A model generated the notes under the pieces. The model did not search any database. It saw only the letters and a program-made list of their open reading frames with translations, and was not told the origin of the DNA. A program made the translations under genes and the position numbers. Shown here one piece after another: positions 6,984 through 42,078 of a stretch of 42,078 nucleotides of DNA. The stretch is taken from IMG/VR virus record IMGVR_UViG_3300022072_000027, positions 1 to 42,078 of that record; one strand, written 5' to 3'. The first letter of the stretch is position 1, and the number at the start of each line of letters is the position of its first letter. This DNA is from a virus.

Positions 6984-9900
6984 ATGGCATCTCGCCTAGA
7001 ATTAATCAGAAACCAAATAAAAGAAAATAATCCTAATTCAGGACTACTTGCTATGTCCGACCAACAGCTTGTAGGGTATCTTCACACAAATAAATATTCT
7101 GATAAAACATATAATGAGTTACAGCAACATTTATTAGGTAATATTAAACAAGATAAAGATGAAGAAATAGAAAACCCATATCAACAAGGGTGGGGTCAAA
7201 AAGTTTATCAATCTTTATTAGGTCCTGTTGGAACTTTATTACCAATAGCTCCAAAAGAAGTCAGACGTTCTCTTGGTGGGATACCTCAAAATTTAGCTGA
7301 AGGAACATCTGATTTATTTGATTTTTTAAAACTAAAAGACAAGACACCTGATGTTATAAAGAAAGGTGCACAGGAATTTGTAAACTTTACAAGCACTGCA
7401 CTTGTTGGTCCAGAGTTAATGTCTGAAGGAAAGGTTGAAGAGCCTACAACTATAACAGGCTCGTTGGTTAAAGAGTTAGGAACTTTTGCTATTCCATATG
7501 CTGGTAGTATGAAGCTACTAGGAGCAGGTCAAAAAGTATTAGAAGCTAGAAAAATTAATAAGTTGCAAAAAGCTTATAAAGATTCTAGAATTGTACGTCT
7601 TAAACCTAGATTCCCTAAAACATTAGCAGCTACAAAACTGTTAGCAAGTGGAGAGATAGCTTCACAATGGGTTATAAAACCGGAAGATGCTATTATGGGT
7701 CAGTTCTTAGGACAAATTGTTGGTGATGATAACGAACAACTTTCAGAACTACTTGATTTTGTTACTGCTGATAAAGATAAAACAGAGGGCGAAAATAGAA
7801 TAGCTTTATTGTTTGATGGTTTATTTATGACTGGGGTTATTGGTGGTGTATTAAAGCTAGGTGGTTTAACATTTAGGTCTGGTAGAGAAATGTTTAACTA
7901 TTTTAAAAATGTTAAAAACTCTGCTACTCCCGAACAAAAAGAAACAATTGTAGAAACTATTAAAGAAGCTTCGGCAACTCCAAAGGCAAACAAAACCCCA
8001 AAACAACTTAAAAAACCGGGTGGTGATGAAACTCCTGTTAAGCTCTGGTCAGAAAGTTCTAATTCTTTTTTACGTGGTTTATCTCAAGCAGGAACTGTTA
8101 CCAAAGATTTATTTTTTTCAGCTAGAGGATTTTTTAATCCTGAAGCATTTGCGTTATTTAATAAAAGTAAAGATGCTAAACTGGCGTGGGCAAGTAAAGG
8201 TGAGCAGTTAATGACCACAATGGAAAGACAAATTAGAACATTGGCAAAAGAAGGTAGGTGGTTTAGAGTAAATAAACAAGCCGAGAAAGAAGCAAACGCT
8301 GTGCTTGATGGATATTTACAAGGCTCGGTAAAATTAAAAGATTTACCTGAGTCAATGCAGTCTACTGCAAAAGAAATGAGAGATACGGTAGATGAATTGT
8401 CTAGGTTTTTATCTCAAAGTAAAGTGGTAGACCCTGAACTTAGAAAAGAAATTGTAGAAAATATAGGTTCTTATCTTAGAAAAACTTATAAAAAATTTGA
8501 AAATCCAGACTGGAGACCATCACAAGAAGTTATTGATAGGGCTGAAAATTTTATCTATGGTAAATTAAAAAGTACTAAATTAAGCAGAAGCAAAGGTAAA
8601 ACGGATAAAGCATTACGTGAAGAAGCAAAAGCTGAAGTTAAAAATTTATTAAGCAACGCAAAATATAGTAAAAACTTTTTTGATTTTACGGATATTATAT
8701 ATGGTGCTAAAGACGGTAAAAAATTATTTAGAGAACGTCAAAAAATTGCACAGCCTATTCGAGATTTATTAGGAGAAGAAAATAATCCAAGTACAAGGGT
8801 ATTTAGTACGATAAGAACTTTGTCAGAATATTTATATGACAGAAATTTAATGGAAAAATATTATAGACTTGGAAACAATAAATTCTTTTTTGAGAATCCA
8901 ACCGGAAACTACAGAAGAATAATTGAGGGAAAACAATTTGGTCCTTTAGATGGTATGCATACAGATACTAAGACATACGCAACTTTAGTAAAACCACTTC
9001 AAACAAATATTAATAAATCTTTTTTTGATAATGTAGTAGGAGAATCGGTTTTAGGAGTGGCTAAATTAGCATTTGCTGCAAAAGGGTTTGCTCAGTCTGC
9101 AGCAACAGTTATTAATAATATTACCCACGAAAGAAACTTATTTGGTAGTGCTAAAATACTTTTAAATAATGGTATCAATCCATTAAGTAAAGAAACATGG
9201 GAATCTGTAAGAACAGTAACTACTAAAATTAGAGGGTCTGGACAAAAAGAATATCAAGAGTTATATAATAAATATTTAAGGCTTGGGATTGTAAATCAAA
9301 ATGCTCGTCTTGGAGATTTAAGATTGTTAATGCAGTCTGCTTCTAAAACAAACGCAGGTAGTTGGTTAAATCAATATAATCCATTTAAAAAGATTTATAA
9401 AAAGCTAGAAGATATTTATGTGGCAGAAGACGATATCTGGAAAATTGTAGCGTTTGAAAAAGAATTAAAAACCTTACAACGAGCTTATCCTAATAAAGGA
9501 ATTGCAGAGCTAGAAGACATGGCAGCAAAAATTGTTAGAAATACAATGCCAACGTATGATATGATTCCTACTGGAATTAAAGCACTAAGATATTCTCCAT
9601 ATGGTAACTTCTTTTCGTTTCATGTTGAAAGATTTAGAAATATATTTCACACTTATAGACAAGGATTTGCAGAATTAAACAGTGGTAATAAAGTTTTACA
9701 ACAAAGAGGAGCTTTAAGACTTGGTTCTCAAACTACGTTAGGTACAGGTGTAGGAGCTTCTGCTGCAGATTATGTAACTGGAAATATGTCTGGACTAAGT
9801 GAAGAAGAAAGATATCATATTAAAGAAGTCAGTAAGCAAGAATACAACGGTGATCGTTGGATTTGGGACATGAACAAAAATGGTAAAATAGTTTGGGCAG

Positions 9901-36832: not shown

Positions 36833-37129
36833 ATGCGTTTAGTTCCCGAAGGTTACATTAAAAGAAACACCTCTACCATACCATTCGGGTATGAGTTCGA
36901 TGAGGTTACTGGATTTCTTAAACCTATAGAAGAGGAACTAGAAGCGTTACAAATTGCTGAGAACATGATAGTCAACGAAGAGGTATCACTTCAGGCTGCA
37001 TGTGATTGGTTAGAATATAAAACCGACAGAAGAATTTCTACTCCCGGTCTCAAGAAACACGTAGATAAAAAATATGGAAAACGAAACGAAAGACTGGGAG
37101 AGGAATCCTCATCTTTACTTGCAAGATGA
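36833..37129 (+). CDS. 98-aa protein with helix-turn-helix-like end, before terminase
   Basis: The N-terminal half is strand-rich (YIKRNTSTIPFGYEFDEVTG). The second half, NEEVSLQAACDWLEYKTDRR then ISTPGLKKHVDKKYG, resembles a helix-turn-helix of resolvase or small-terminase type. It overlaps the large terminase gene by 56 bases, suggesting a packaging accessory or alternative small terminase. I cannot assign a family. Confidence 0.5.
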   Translation: MRLVPEGYIKRNTSTIPFGYEFDEVTGFLKPIEEELEALQIAENMIVNEEVSLQAACDWLEYKTDRRISTPGLKKHVDKKYGKRNERLGEESSSLLAR

Positions 37130-38732
37130 TGATGGTAACTTTGTCTTAAAGAAAGACGGAACTCCTAAAAAGAAAGCAGGTCGACCTAAGACCAGCACCG
37201 AAAAAGCTATCAAGGCTGCACGTGCTACGGTAGGTCGTAAACAGCGTAACATTAAAAAGCTTGAAGCCAAGCTTAACAACGCTAGACAATCGTTTAAAAA
37301 ACAAAAAGAAACAATTCAAAAACTTGACAAGACTGTAGAAGGTCCTGTTACTGAAGATGAACTTGACAATCTTCCAAAAGCTGTACAAGAAAATTTAGAC
37401 AACCATACAGTCTTGTTCCATGCTAACGAAGGTCCACAGACAGACTTCCTTGCTGCCGGTGAAAAAGATGTGTTGTATGGTGGAGCTGCCGGTGGTGGTA
37501 AATCTTTTGCCATGATCGTAGACCCACTCAGATATTGTCACAAGAAAGCTCATCGTGCTTTAATCCTTAGACGTTCTATGCCAGAACTAAGGGAGATGAT
37601 TGATAAGTCTCGTGAGTTATATCCACAAGCCTTTCCCGGTGCTAAGTTTAGAGAAGTTGAAAAGCTTTGGAACTTTCCAAGTGGTGCAAAGGTTGAGTTT
37701 GGATTCCTTGAGAGAGATGCAGACGTATACAGATATCAAGGACAAGCATATAGTTGGATAGGCTTTGATGAGATTACTCACTTACCCACAGAGTTTAGCT
37801 GGAACTATCTTGCTTCACGACTCAGAACAACTGACCCAGAAATACAAACATACCTTCGCTGTACTGCTAATCCCGGTGGTGTTGGTTCGCATTGGGTTAA
37901 AAAAAGATACATAGAACCTTCAGAGCATAATAAATCTTTTGCTGGTAACGATGGTTTAACACGTAAGTTTATTCCGGCTAAGTTAGCTGATAACCCATAC
38001 CTTGCAGAGGATGGTGTCTATGAGCAAATGCTTAAGTCTTTACCACCGATTCAACGTAGACAATTGCTTGAAGGTAACTGGGATGTAGCAGAAGGTGCAG
38101 CATTTGTAGAGTTTGACCCACTCAATCATGTGATTACTCCGTTTGAATTACCTTTACACTGGGAAAGAGTAAAAGCAGTTGACTATGGATACGCTGCAGA
38201 AAGCTGTTGTTTATGGGGAATAATGGATCAAAATGACGGAACTTTAATAATTTATAGAGAATTATACAGAAAAGGCTTGACAGGAGAAGAATTAGGTAGT
38301 ATAATAACAAGTATGGAGCTAGAAGACCCTTACTCGGTCTCTGGTGTCTTGGATACAGCAGCGTGGGCTAGAACAGGTACTACAGGACCTACGGTTGGAG
38401 AAGCACTTGTACGAGCAGGACATAAGCTGAGACCAGCAGATAAGAACAGGGTACAGGGTAAAATCCAGATACACGAGTTTCTGAAGGTTCAAGAGAATGG
38501 TAGACCTAAGTTACAGATATTTAATACATGTCCTAACTTAATACGAGAGATACAGTCTATACCGTTATCAAAGAACAATCCGGAGGATGTGGATACACAT
38601 GCTTCAGATCACGCATATGATGCATTGCGTTATATGATAATGAGTAGACCACGAATGATAAGTACATTCGATAGGTTGAGAGGATTGAAAAGAGATATCC
38701 ATCAACCGGCTGATTCAACATTTGGATATTAA
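37074..38732 (+). CDS. terL: Terminase large subunit
   Basis: The packaging motor has an ATPase domain with Walker A GGAAGGGKS (136-144), Walker B WIGFDEITH (Asp232, Glu233) and coupling motif CTANPGG (263-269). The C-terminal RNase H-like nuclease has Asp370 in VDYGYA, Asp427 in LDTAAW and Asp512/Asp516 in SDHAYDALRY. It pumps DNA into the procapsid through the portal and cuts it. An unusual 110-residue N-terminal extension holds an AT-hook-like KAGRPK and a Lys-rich coiled coil (about 45-85). The ATG at 37074 has no clear ribosome site, so translation may be coupled to the overlapping 98-aa gene. Confidence 0.95.
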   Translation: MENETKDWERNPHLYLQDDDGNFVLKKDGTPKKKAGRPKTSTEKAIKAARATVGRKQRNIKKLEAKLNNARQSFKKQKETIQKLDKTVEGPVTEDELDNLPKAVQENLDNHTVLFHANEGPQTDFLAAGEKDVLYGGAAGGGKSFAMIVDPLRYCHKKAHRALILRRSMPELREMIDKSRELYPQAFPGAKFREVEKLWNFPSGAKVEFGFLERDADVYRYQGQAYSWIGFDEITHLPTEFSWNYLASRLRTTDPEIQTYLRCTANPGGVGSHWVKKRYIEPSEHNKSFAGNDGLTRKFIPAKLADNPYLAEDGVYEQMLKSLPPIQRRQLLEGNWDVAEGAAFVEFDPLNHVITPFELPLHWERVKAVDYGYAAESCCLWGIMDQNDGTLIIYRELYRKGLTGEELGSIITSMELEDPYSVSGVLDTAAWARTGTTGPTVGEALVRAGHKLRPADKNRVQGKIQIHEFLKVQENGRPKLQIFNTCPNLIREIQSIPLSKNNPEDVDTHASDHAYDALRYMIMSRPRMISTFDRLRGLKRDIHQPADSTFGY

Positions 38733-38737
38733 AGTTT

Positions 38738-40945
38738 ATGGCAGACAACGAGAATACATTTTTAAACGCTGACAACATCTACGAAGACGTAGAAGGTGAA
38801 GCTGGTAAAAATCTTAATTTAGAAATAGAACAGAAAAGTAATCTTGTTGGTATCATCAAAGATAGGTTTCAAGTATCAGAAGATGCAAGACGTTCAGATG
38901 AATCACGTTGGTTAAAAGCTTACGAAAACTACAGAGGACTTTACAACAAGTCAATTAAGTTTAGAGACTCAGAAAAGTCTAGAGTCTTTGTTAAGATTAC
39001 CAAAACAAAAGTACTAGCTGCTTTTGGTCAACTTGTTGATGTAATCTTTGGTACAGGTAAATTTCCAATTGGTATTTCAGAAACAAAAATACCAGAAGGT
39101 GAATTAGCAAGTGCTCATTTAGATACTCAAACAGGTGCACCCGGCTTAGAAAGCACTATGGGTGGTGGTGAGTTGCCCGGAGATGTGGATGGGAATACAT
39201 TAGATAACCCATACGATGTTGGATATGAAGGTGATGGTAAAGTTCTTAAACCCGGAGCTACCTTCAACAAAGGAATCTTTGAGGACAGTCTTGAAGATAA
39301 AGTAGAAGACCAGTTGGTTGAAGGCTTTAGTCCTATACCTACAATGTTAGAAATTTCTCCAGCACAAAAAGCTGCAAGGAGAATGGAAAAACTTATACAC
39401 GATCAAATAGATGAATCAAAAGGTTCATCAGAAATTAGAAATGCTCTTTTAGAATCTTCTCTACTTGGTACAGGGATTGTAAAAGGACCATTTAACTTTA
39501 ACAAGAAACTTCACAAGTGGGATACTGGTGAAGATGGTGAAAGAAGTTACAACCCGTTAGAGGTTAGAGTACCTAGAATTGAGTTTGTTAGCTGTTGGGA
39601 TTTTTATCCTGATCCCGGAGCTACTAGTATTGAAGAGTGTGAGTATGTTATTCACAGACACAAACTAAACAAATCTCAACTTAGACAACTACGTAACATG
39701 CCTTACTTTGATGAGGATGCTATCCGTAATTGTTTACAGATGGGTGCTAATTATGAAGAGAAAAGCTTTGAGTCACATTTAAAAGATGATGCAAGAAGCG
39801 ATGAAGACTATCAATCTAACTTTGAAGTTCTTGAATACTGGGGAATCATGGATGCAGAGTATGCACGTGAAGTCGGTATAGAACTTTCAGATGATATTGA
39901 TGATCTAGATGAAGTTCAAGTTAATGCTTGGGTATGTGGTAACAGTTTATTAAGAGCAGTGGTCAATCCATTTACTCCTTATAGATTACCATACCACGCT
40001 TTCCCATACGAAAGAAATCCTTATAACTTCTTCGGTATTGGTGTAGCTGAGAACATGGATGATTCTCAACAGATTATGAATGGTCATGCACGTATGGCTG
40101 TAGATAACCTAGCAATGGCTGGGTCTTTGGTGTTTGATGTAGATGAATCTGCCTTAGTTGGTGGACAGTCTATGGAAATATATCCGGGTAAGATATTCAG
40201 AAGACAAGCTGGAATGCCCGGACAAGCTATACATGGTTTGAAGTTTCCTAACACAGCACCAGAAAACATGATGATGTTTGACAAGTTTAGACAACTTGCA
40301 GATGAGCAAACAGGAATACCTAGTTACTCACACGGACAAACAGGTGTACAAAGTATGACAAGGACTGCTTCGGGCATGTCAATGTTGTTAGGTGCATCAA
40401 GTTTAAATATTAAAACAGTTGTTAAGAATCTTGACGACTTTTTATTAAGACCTCTAGGAGAAGCTTTCTTTCAGTGGAACATGCAGTTCTTTGAAGGTGG
40501 TCTAGATGTCAACGGTGATTTAGAAGTTAAAGCTACCGGAACAAACAGCTTGATGCAAAAAGAAGTACGTAGTCAAAGACTAACTACATTCTTACAAACT
40601 GTACAAAATCCTGCTGTTGCTCCGTTTGTTAAGATTTCTAAACTAATTAGTGAACTTGCTTATAGCTTAGACTTAGACCCAGATGAAGTTTTAAACGACC
40701 CTGAAGAAGCAGCTATCATGGCACAAATCATAGGAATGCAAAATGTTGGACAAACAACTGGCGAAGAAGCTCAACCCGATAGTCAACAACCCGGCGGTAT
40801 GGGAAGTCTTGCAGGAACACCTGCAGAACCTCAAGAGCTTGGACCTACAGGCACTGGCGGTGGCAACATCGGAATCGGAAATGTTCCGGTTGCAGGGGAA
40901 GATCAATTCTCTGGTACGCTTAGAGCAGCTCCCGGAGCAGGTTAA
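38738..40945 (+). CDS. Portal protein
   Basis: This 735-aa protein follows the large terminase by six bases, as portals do. The N-terminal region (about 35-105) has the helical clip/wing pattern of podovirus portals (LKAYENYRGLYN, then VFVKITKTKVLAAFGQLVDVI). The central part includes FVSCWDFYPDPGATSIEECEYVIHR (shortened: FYPDPGATSIEE) and YHAFPYERNPYNFFGIGVAE, a strongly portal-like segment. It forms the dodecameric DNA channel at the vertex. The last 65 residues are Gly/Pro/Gln-rich, and the DNA there also encodes another protein in the +1 frame. Its GC content and codon use differ from the rest of the gene. Confidence 0.85.
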   Translation: MADNENTFLNADNIYEDVEGEAGKNLNLEIEQKSNLVGIIKDRFQVSEDARRSDESRWLKAYENYRGLYNKSIKFRDSEKSRVFVKITKTKVLAAFGQLVDVIFGTGKFPIGISETKIPEGELASAHLDTQTGAPGLESTMGGGELPGDVDGNTLDNPYDVGYEGDGKVLKPGATFNKGIFEDSLEDKVEDQLVEGFSPIPTMLEISPAQKAARRMEKLIHDQIDESKGSSEIRNALLESSLLGTGIVKGPFNFNKKLHKWDTGEDGERSYNPLEVRVPRIEFVSCWDFYPDPGATSIEECEYVIHRHKLNKSQLRQLRNMPYFDEDAIRNCLQMGANYEEKSFESHLKDDARSDEDYQSNFEVLEYWGIMDAEYAREVGIELSDDIDDLDEVQVNAWVCGNSLLRAVVNPFTPYRLPYHAFPYERNPYNFFGIGVAENMDDSQQIMNGHARMAVDNLAMAGSLVFDVDESALVGGQSMEIYPGKIFRRQAGMPGQAIHGLKFPNTAPENMMMFDKFRQLADEQTGIPSYSHGQTGVQSMTRTASGMSMLLGASSLNIKTVVKNLDDFLLRPLGEAFFQWNMQFFEGGLDVNGDLEVKATGTNSLMQKEVRSQRLTTFLQTVQNPAVAPFVKISKLISELAYSLDLDPDEVLNDPEEAAIMAQIIGMQNVGQTTGEEAQPDSQQPGGMGSLAGTPAEPQELGPTGTGGGNIGIGNVPVAGEDQFSGTLRAAPGAG

Positions 40946-40976
40946 AGAAGCAGCAAATAGAAAAGAGGAAACATGA
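40743..40976 (+). CDS. 77-aa helical protein encoded out of frame within the portal gene's 3' end
   Basis: The gene lies in the +1 frame relative to the portal gene, overlapping it by 203 bases, and ends in an ATGA overlap with the next gene. AGGA at 40732-40735 precedes its ATG by seven bases. The product is a regular amphipathic helical protein (NPAVWEVLQEHLQNLKSL; MFRLQGKINSLVRLEQL), quite unlike a random frame. Small helical proteins of this type, with an RLQG core, follow portals in other phages as I recall. It may assist capsid or portal assembly. The portal tail in the overlap is low complexity, suggesting which frame is constrained. Confidence 0.65.
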   Translation: MLDKQLAKKLNPIVNNPAVWEVLQEHLQNLKSLDLQALAVATSESEMFRLQGKINSLVRLEQLPEQVKEAANRKEET

Positions 40977-41713
40977 AAAAAAAGAGTTTATTAAAAGACG
41001 ATAGCTTTCCAGATTTAAACAAAGATGGTGAAGTTACTTATGCGGATGTATTAGAAGGTAGAGGTGCTTTTGCTGTTGGTGGTTCTCTTTTAGCAGATGA
41101 TATGCCTGTAGAAGAAAACAAAATGGAAGAACCCATGATGGAAAAACCTATGGTTGAAGAACCCATGATGGAAGAACCAAAAGAAGAAATGATTCCAGAC
41201 AACGAAATGGAAGATGAATACTTAGATTTTATATTAGACGAAGCATTAGATAACGAAGAAGAAGATTTTCTAATGGATGCGTTACAAAGCAACGAACAAC
41301 TGTCAATGATATTTGACAAAGTTATAGACGTTGCACAAGAATTTGCTGGGTCTGGTCCTGTTGAAGGTCCGGGTTCAGGAGTCTCTGACAGTATACCTGC
41401 AAGGTTATCTGACGGAGAATTTGTCTTTACTGCAAAAGCTGTAGAACAAATCGGAGCCGATAAACTAATGGCAATGATGAAGGATGCAGAAATGGAAGCA
41501 GATGATAGACAAGGTTTAGCTAATGGTGGTGAGCCAGAAGAAGAAAATGTTGAGATGGAGGTTGAAAAACCTGCAACTAAACAGGATATTAGAGTAGTGA
41601 AAACTACTGTAGATAACGGTGGAAAAGGATTGTTAGATGAAGATGAGATATCTAAAAGTATTAAATCTAAAATGATGCTTGACAACCGAACTGGAAGACA
41701 CGTCCAAAGCTAA
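40973..41713 (+). CDS. 246-aa acidic protein between portal and scaffold genes
   Basis: Residues 9-28 contain an EF-hand-like loop (DLNKDGEVTYADV), as in dockerins. A Met/Glu/Pro-rich tract follows (about 45-75) with PMMEEP-type repeats. Residues about 128-165 hold GPGSGVSDSIPARLSDGEFV, then FTAKAVEQIGADKLMAMM, a phrase I recall in many phage structural proteins of unknown role. It also carries FAVGG and LANGGE motifs. It probably assists head assembly, perhaps with calcium. It is not the scaffold itself, as a better candidate follows. Confidence 0.55.
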   Translation: MKKKSLLKDDSFPDLNKDGEVTYADVLEGRGAFAVGGSLLADDMPVEENKMEEPMMEKPMVEEPMMEEPKEEMIPDNEMEDEYLDFILDEALDNEEEDFLMDALQSNEQLSMIFDKVIDVAQEFAGSGPVEGPGSGVSDSIPARLSDGEFVFTAKAVEQIGADKLMAMMKDAEMEADDRQGLANGGEPEEENVEMEVEKPATKQDIRVVKTTVDNGGKGLLDEDEISKSIKSKMMLDNRTGRHVQS

Positions 41714-41724
41714 ACAAACTTAAC

Positions 41725-41838
41725 GGTAGGGCTACCTTATGTCATAAGCACCCTACTATTTTATAAACCGAAAGGCTACCTTTACATACAAGCCCTCTAG
41801 TCGACATAGAGCTACCTTGTGAACGAAGCCCCCGTAGG
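41725..41838 (+). ncRNA. Three tandem similar hairpins before the scaffold gene (cis-regulatory RNA candidate)
   Basis: GCTACCTT occurs at 41731, 41775 and 41811, each followed after a short loop by AAGC. Each can fold as G-CTAC-CTT-loop-AAG-C with CTAC as a one-sided bulge. Copy one has a longer stem (GTAGGG 41726-41731 with CCCTAC 41751-41756; CTTAT with ATAAG) and is followed by TATTTTAT, terminator-like. Copy three can also pair CTAC (41812-41815) with GTAG (41834-41837), part of the scaffold gene's ribosome site. Confidence 0.6.
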
Positions 41839-41847
41839 AGAAAGAAT

Positions 41848-42078
41848 ATGACTACAGAAGTACAAGAGGAAAATGCCAATCCTTACAACATGAACAAATC
41901 ATGGCATACTGAAGACGAAATAGGTTTCCAAGATGCAAACGGAGTTTTTTTCGAAAAGCCCAAAGCAAAACAGGAAGCAGACATAGAAGAACCTGTGGAA
42001 CAGGAAGCAAAGAAGGACGAACCTTACAAGCGACCAGACTACAAGAAACGCTATGACGACTTGAAAAAACATTATGAC
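41848..42078 (+). CDS. Scaffold-like protein, N-terminal part (3' truncated)
   Basis: The frame is open to the window's edge, giving 77 residues. The ATG follows TAGGAG. The protein is acidic and Gln/Glu/Lys-rich with KRPDYKKRYDDLKKHYD at the end, the pattern of podovirus capsid assembly scaffold proteins. It is placed after the portal, where scaffold then major capsid genes are expected. Scaffold guides capsid shell assembly and is then removed. Confidence 0.7.
   Translation, partial: MTTEVQEENANPYNMNKSWHTEDEIGFQDANGVFFEKPKAKQEADIEEPVEQEAKKDEPYKRPDYKKRYDDLKKHYD

Follow-up and report, generated by a model that had tools for sequence, protein, structure and literature searches.

The window, that is, the whole stretch of DNA analysed here, comprises the 42,078 bases of a record from an HMO-2011-type podovirus. 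Towards its end lie the genes for terminase and portal, a further reading frame, a folded RNA element and the beginning of a presumed scaffold gene (Table 1). The portal gene served as the anchor for comparison among relatives. Residues ~120-180 of the reading frame that follows it match parts of tape-measure protein families in PHROGs.

A near-identical locus (L007) contains the full-length counterpart of the truncated gene at 8664-9512, encoding 282 aa with a phrog_13678 match at 1.2e-76; the next gene encodes the major head protein, of family phrog_267. PHROGs annotates phrog_13678 as of unknown function. Its location between portal and coat, its size and its all-helical predicted fold (AlphaFold model, pLDDT 78, pTM 0.42) suggest a scaffold protein, which would give the gene order portal, scaffold, coat in the window's phage. 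The protein has no Pfam match, and its model returned no fold or profile match in the PDB. In the spring-water podovirus MW202701, an annotated PacI-like HNH endonuclease gene lies between the presumed scaffold and capsid genes (L319, 1893-2462), and in Rhizobium phage RHph_N3_13 a group I intron (RF00028) lies just 5' of the annotated terminase large subunit (L302, 746-963).

Table 1. Genes and RNA features at the 3' end of the window.
Feature	Positions	Strand	Sequence or remarks
Terminase	37074-38732
Portal gene	38738-40945	+	phrog_332, 4.5e-81; phrog_1216 (portal), 9e-39; homologous to HMO-2011-type phage portals
Reading frame of 246 aa, between portal and element	40973-41713	+	stop codon 11 nt 5' of hairpin 1
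Hairpin 1	41725-41757	+	covariation in 44 and 48 distinct relatives
Hairpin 1, outer stem	41725-41731 with 41751-41757		GGTAGGG/CCCTACT
Hairpin 1, internal loop	41732-41735 / 41749-41750		CTAC / CA
Hairpin 1, inner stem	41736-41740 with 41744-41748		CTTAT/ATAAG; loop GTC
Long hairpin, copies 2 and 3	41774-41832	+	cross-pair covariation, RNAalifold, pair counts, window MFE
Long hairpin, outer pairs			GG/CC
Long hairpin, lower internal loop	41776-41779 / 41829-41830		CTAC / CC
Long hairpin, lower stem	41780-41783 with 41825-41828
Long hairpin, upper stem	41787-41792 with 41816-41821		TACAAG/CTTGTG
Long hairpin, upper internal loop	41793-41794 / 41812-41815		CC / CTAC
Apical stem-loop	41795-41811	+	CTCTA-GTCGACA-TAGAG
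Self-complementary hexamer	41800-41805		GTCGAC
Shine-Dalgarno core	41837-41840	+	GGAG; 6 nt past the element's last CC
Presumed scaffold gene (phrog_13678), 5' part	41848-42078	+	truncated at window end

Fold of the element in the window and its close relatives

The initial annotation had rightly pointed out three copies of GCTACCTT, at 41731, 41775 and 41811, spaced 44 and 36 nt apart and each followed by AAGC. The whole window holds six copies against 1.36 expected, a number that none of 100 shuffles reached, and a span of 88 nt contains three of them. In relatives, conservation of these three is strong.

Copy 1 folds, by prediction, into a local hairpin whose pairs covary strongly in 48 distinct close relatives, and its outer stem is the one first proposed. 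When 44 distinct sequences are aligned on their conserved flanks only, pairing is kept nearly throughout. The second inner pair is C-G in 30 and T-A in 14 of them, the third T-A in 33, G-C in 8 and A-T in 1; the third outer pair is A-T (26), G-C (15) or G-T (3). Placed on a tree of portal proteins, the pairs of this hairpin underwent at least 3 to 12 changes each. The 5' strand of its internal loop reads CTAC in 32 sequences and CCAC in 12, the 3' strand CA in 35 and CC in 9. The unit model R2 finds the window's hairpin 1 at 34.1 bits (E 1.8e-07) with a copy of this hairpin in its training set; window scores of R1 and R2 are partly by construction, identical or near-identical sequences having served for training.

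A T-rich stretch does follow hairpin 1 in the window, and it would suit a transcription attenuator or terminator placed between the upstream late genes and the scaffold-coat genes. However, the T run is not conserved in relatives and no terminator-like site is found there on the + strand. We consider this role very improbable.

Contrary to the first reading, in which three independent hairpins stood in tandem, copies 2 and 3 are best modelled as the two strands of one longer hairpin. RNAfold pairs copy 2 with copy 3 in the window, and compensatory changes favour this cross-pairing over local pairing. The inner sequences form 28 distinct pairs. Next to the upper loop, 23 of these have G-C as the cross-pair and 5 have A-T, and in those five cases local pairing of copy 2 would give C-A. 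At the fourth cross-pair, 25 have C-G and 2 have A-T; at the fifth, 26 have A-T and 1 has T-A. Local pairing at position 4, in contrast, holds in 2 and 6 of the 28. The cross-paired model leaves 95.3% of alignment cells paired, compared with 87.0% in shuffles, and contains 135 double changes, compared with 45.9; the local model has 88.3% of cells paired. RNAalifold, unaided, recovered the same upper stem and top stem. We rejected the local three-hairpin model for copies 2 and 3, in which local pairing holds for 72.9% and 76.6% of cells and C-A mismatches appear where the cross-pair turns A-U. Of all these results, the anchored counts carry the weight; one unit tally and alignment A5 used units that had been selected for pairing.

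In the long hairpin thus drawn, the internal loop 5'-CYAC / 5'-C[A or C] occurs twice, in inverted orientation, with an invariant closing G-C pair. The lower stem of this hairpin hardly varies, which makes for a weak test, and owes its support mainly to symmetry with other phages. An RNAalifold alternative for the lower part, AAAGG-CUA-CCUUU, likewise hardly varies, loses pairs without compensation in a few rows and is unproven. Pairing between the third CTAC and a GTAG at the ribosome site, also suggested initially, is possible in the window and is not conserved, other relatives having GATTAGGAG or AACAAGGAG. As for the earlier view that pairing rather than loop is kept, pairing indeed holds while stem and loop letters vary, but the internal loop CYAC/CM (M, A or C) and the apical palindrome of the long hairpin are conserved as well.

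Within the window's group, 17-19 of 48 sequences show covariation in the apical stem (GC/CG and CG/UA). Above it, the hexamer is GTCGAC in 30, GTGCAC in 16, TAGCTA in 1 and GTCGAA in 1, hence self-complementary in 47 of 48. Between GTCGAC and GTGCAC there were at least 13 state changes on the portal tree, each a double change that preserves self-complementarity; such compensatory upkeep of a 6-nt palindrome is found in the window's subgroup only. Two loci with identical portals, L020 and L021, carry GTGCAC/CTGC and GTCGAC/CTCT, respectively (palindrome/stem), a difference that suggests recombination at the element.

Both this maintenance and the likeness of GUGCAC with flanking purines to the HIV-1 loop (PMC7357161) would fit dimerisation of the RNA, in which two scaffold mRNAs kiss through their apical loops, clustering messages or raising the valence of an assembling protein. 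Yet recombination between two alleles may be the source of part of the switches and, as the identical portals of L020 and L021 indicate, could inflate their count. Moreover, the tops of HMO-2011-type hairpins are non-palindromic and phages with a single hairpin lack the palindrome, which argues that the palindrome is an addition in one branch and dimerisation not the core function. We give dimerisation only a small chance.

Distribution and placement of the recognition unit

Most of 80 portal-anchored IMG/VR relatives have GCTACCTT in the same gap, where the cultured phages HTVC103P and HTVC104P also carry the element. More widely, the module occurs with unrelated stems 5' of the phrog_13678 gene in about 210 of 225 metagenomic loci and in nearly all cultured phages with that gene, a link that is partly built in because the loci were gathered through the neighbouring portal gene. 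A permissive test detects at least one unit at 210 of 225 loci and a strict test at 199 (1.7 in shuffles); read by eye, most remaining loci hold near-variants. Unit density reaches 6.29/kb in the 200 nt 5' of the gene, compared with 0.054/kb over the rest of that strand and 0.086/kb on the opposite strand. In a letter-blind tally of all 4x2 internal loops with stems of at least 4 bp, CTAC/CC was found at 74 loci and CTAC/CA at 52, the commonest unrelated loop at 9.

The units are arranged in several ways. HMO-2011-like loci have one hairpin in which 'GG CTAC n5-6 CC CC' occurs twice and pairs with itself, forming two inverted CUAC/CC loops between covarying stems. CRP-212, CRP-3, MW202701, phiM6 and RHph_N3_13 share this dyad plan. 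Single units are present in CRP-2, -9, -13, -207, -235, -603 and -738, CHOED and Aeromonas phages, with loop variants ATAC/AC and ACAC/CC among them, while tandem single hairpins occur in HTVC103P-like phages, HTVC115P and several IMG/VR groups. Independent pair changes could be placed on the portal tree, and many pairs covary. Altogether, the comparison describes a conserved RNA with a predicted fold, of which hundreds of related phages have one to four copies around the same gene.

There are exceptions. Slicky01 has the phrog_13678 gene and no element, none is seen at loci L217 and L218, and the more remote N4-like G7C, vB_Pun_Y3 and RHph_TM3_14A are without it. A direct DNA search for the element in phages gave no match, since the sequence diverges too fast. 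A search of bacterial genomes gave only four MAG contigs.

Another possibility is a site acting as DNA, in packaging, in replication or for a transcription factor. Inverted repeats and a palindrome speak for one. Against it, covariation turns the pairs into unrelated sequences, the asymmetric loop is specific to one strand (a unit-model search of 40 loci gave 40 hits, all of them on the coding strand) and the element is positioned relative to the ribosome site. We find this explanation barely plausible.

The presumed scaffold gene does have a conserved RNA fold at its ribosome site: from the last CC of the element to the Shine-Dalgarno core the median distance is 6 nt (n=172 loci). This constancy, together with the freely varying stems, is what a purely structural insulator would display, stable hairpins holding the ribosome site open with no trans-acting reader. 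It would nevertheless leave unexplained why the CYAC/CM letters and the closing G-C pair are kept amid changing stems, and why some copies lie inside the gene; we regard it as distinctly unlikely.

Those in-gene copies form an extra unit within the coding sequence, +106 to +139 nt from the start, at eight loci of one subgroup (L275, L284, L286, L290, L292, L294, L298 and L301). Their stems differ, as in gagg[CTAC]TTCC..GGAA[CC]cctc and agaagg[CCAC]CC..GG[CC]ccttct, and no unit is found 300-600 nt after the start. The in-gene unit is located in a linker region of the presumed scaffold gene that, apart from the unit, is variable.

Some phages (phiM6, RHph_N3_13 and CRP-603) have a second dyad 5' of the capsid gene. 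In HMO-2011-like loci (L088, L099-L106, L110-L140), a gap of 200-260 nt separates the phrog_13678 and capsid genes. It contains a sigma70-like promoter (GTTGACA, 16-17 nt, TATAAC), and the conserved leader RNA encoded there folds strongly, with the hairpin GTGTAAGTGGGTTAGCTACTTGCTTACAC, a long-range GCAAAC/GTTTGC pairing and loops that resemble the YAC/CC module; this leader has no Rfam match in L088, L099, L102 and L110.

Processing or stabilisation of the mRNA would also make use of such hairpins, cut or protected by RNase III, RNase E or a phage nuclease at the internal loop to yield a stable, well-translated scaffold-coat message. The element lies between genes of one late operon and ends a few nt 5' of the ribosome site, and hairpins with internal loops are typical of phage processing sites, as in T7. 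On the other hand, single units of ~10-12 base pairs are short for RNase III, RNase E sites are single-stranded and AU-rich, and cleavage at the in-gene unit would mean cutting the gene itself. Processing seems to us unlikely.

A putative operator of the scaffold-coat mRNA

With modest confidence, we lean towards reading the element as a cis-acting RNA operator with several sites, located in the scaffold-coat mRNA leader of HMO-2011-type podoviruses. Its recognition unit would be the asymmetric internal loop 5'-G[CYAC]Y / 5'-R[CM]C between two freely varying helices, present one to four times per gene, either in single hairpins or as an inverted pair within one long hairpin, with the last unit a few nucleotides 5' of the Shine-Dalgarno sequence. 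Fixed loop letters amid free stems imply specific recognition: something reads the loop. A protein bound there may alter initiation at the scaffold start, and the multiplicity of units, their inverted pairing, their placement at the ribosome site and the copies within the first codons all point to one that acts cooperatively. Likewise, units to either side of the start codon are what one would expect if the element were an operator and not a spacer.

Among candidate readers, the likeliest is one of the phage's structural proteins, the scaffold (phrog_13678) or the coat, since the element accompanies their genes in very different hosts; feedback by such a protein would hold scaffold and coat in proportion. 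The reader could also be a host protein or a nuclease. Against the operator stand Slicky01 and the loci L217 and L218, devoid of the element, as well as the presumptive nature of the scaffold itself. A bolder version is tentative and on balance improbable: that the CYAC/CM loop, singly, in tandem or as an inverted pair, is a new RNA recognition module, and that capsid-assembly proteins of a common group of ocean phages bind it on the mRNA that encodes them, in some phages to either side of the start codon, and so fix the scaffold:coat ratio, with kissing-loop dimerisation of the leader in the pelagiphage branch.

The fold, the conservation of the loop, its position and its strand are shown by comparison; the element probably sets the amounts of scaffold and coat proteins. 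The initial annotation had described a repeated RNA element 5' of the scaffold and capsid genes, to be checked by covariation in relatives and by its presence in phages with the same gene order, and both are found. Among the functions it listed (attenuation, stability and protein binding), the last fits best.

Control of the scaffold:coat ratio in tailed DNA phages is poorly understood at the RNA level. Here, a sharply defined and widely conserved RNA element lies where a tailed phage must balance the two proteins, which makes the question directly testable: cultured hosts and phages exist (HTVC103P, HTVC115P, HMO-2011, CRP and Rhizobium phages, Vibrio phage CHOED), and the repeated internal-loop motif can be used as bait for its protein.

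Relation to known systems

No covariance model of Rfam 15 (4227 families) matches the window or the element at gathering score, or the element at E up to 5, in agreement with the initial annotation, which knew of no described motif of this form. Twelve relatives scanned against Rfam gave only tRNAs and one group I intron. Literature searches turned up neither an account of the element nor an open-access paper about autoregulation of the P22 scaffold. We classify the element as a new family of a known kind, the cis-regulatory mRNA elements, with an unusual, repeated internal-loop recognition unit.

The scaffold of phage P22 (gene 8) is subject to post-transcriptional autoregulation, which by analogy would be the closest functional precedent. 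P22 has the same gene order (portal, scaffold, coat) and the same demand for balance between scaffold and coat; in contrast, the 13-nt gap before its gene 8 has no such hairpin and no room for the element, and the comparison yielded no protein match. In RNA phages such as MS2 and PP7, the coat operator is a small irregular hairpin at a start codon, read by the capsid protein, much as we propose here. Theirs, however, is built of a bulged A and an apical loop, whereas here a 4x2 internal loop CYAC/CM occurs in several copies in tailed DNA phages, with a putative reader. The C-loop, an RNA 3D motif, has defined non-canonical pairs in an asymmetric internal loop; the C-rich asymmetric loop of the element offers only a lead to it.

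For the apical palindrome, the dimerisation initiation site of HIV-1 offers a parallel, its apical loop also having the 6-nt palindrome GUGCAC between purines (PMC7357161). Unlike in HIV-1, the palindrome is here confined to the window's pelagiphage group, is more commonly GTCGAC and lies in a phage mRNA leader, where dimerisation is putative. The prohead RNA of phi29 differs in that its loops are two and complementary, while the loop here is self-complementary, in an mRNA leader with no Rfam match; both are phage RNAs tied to head assembly, with a potential for loop-loop contacts.
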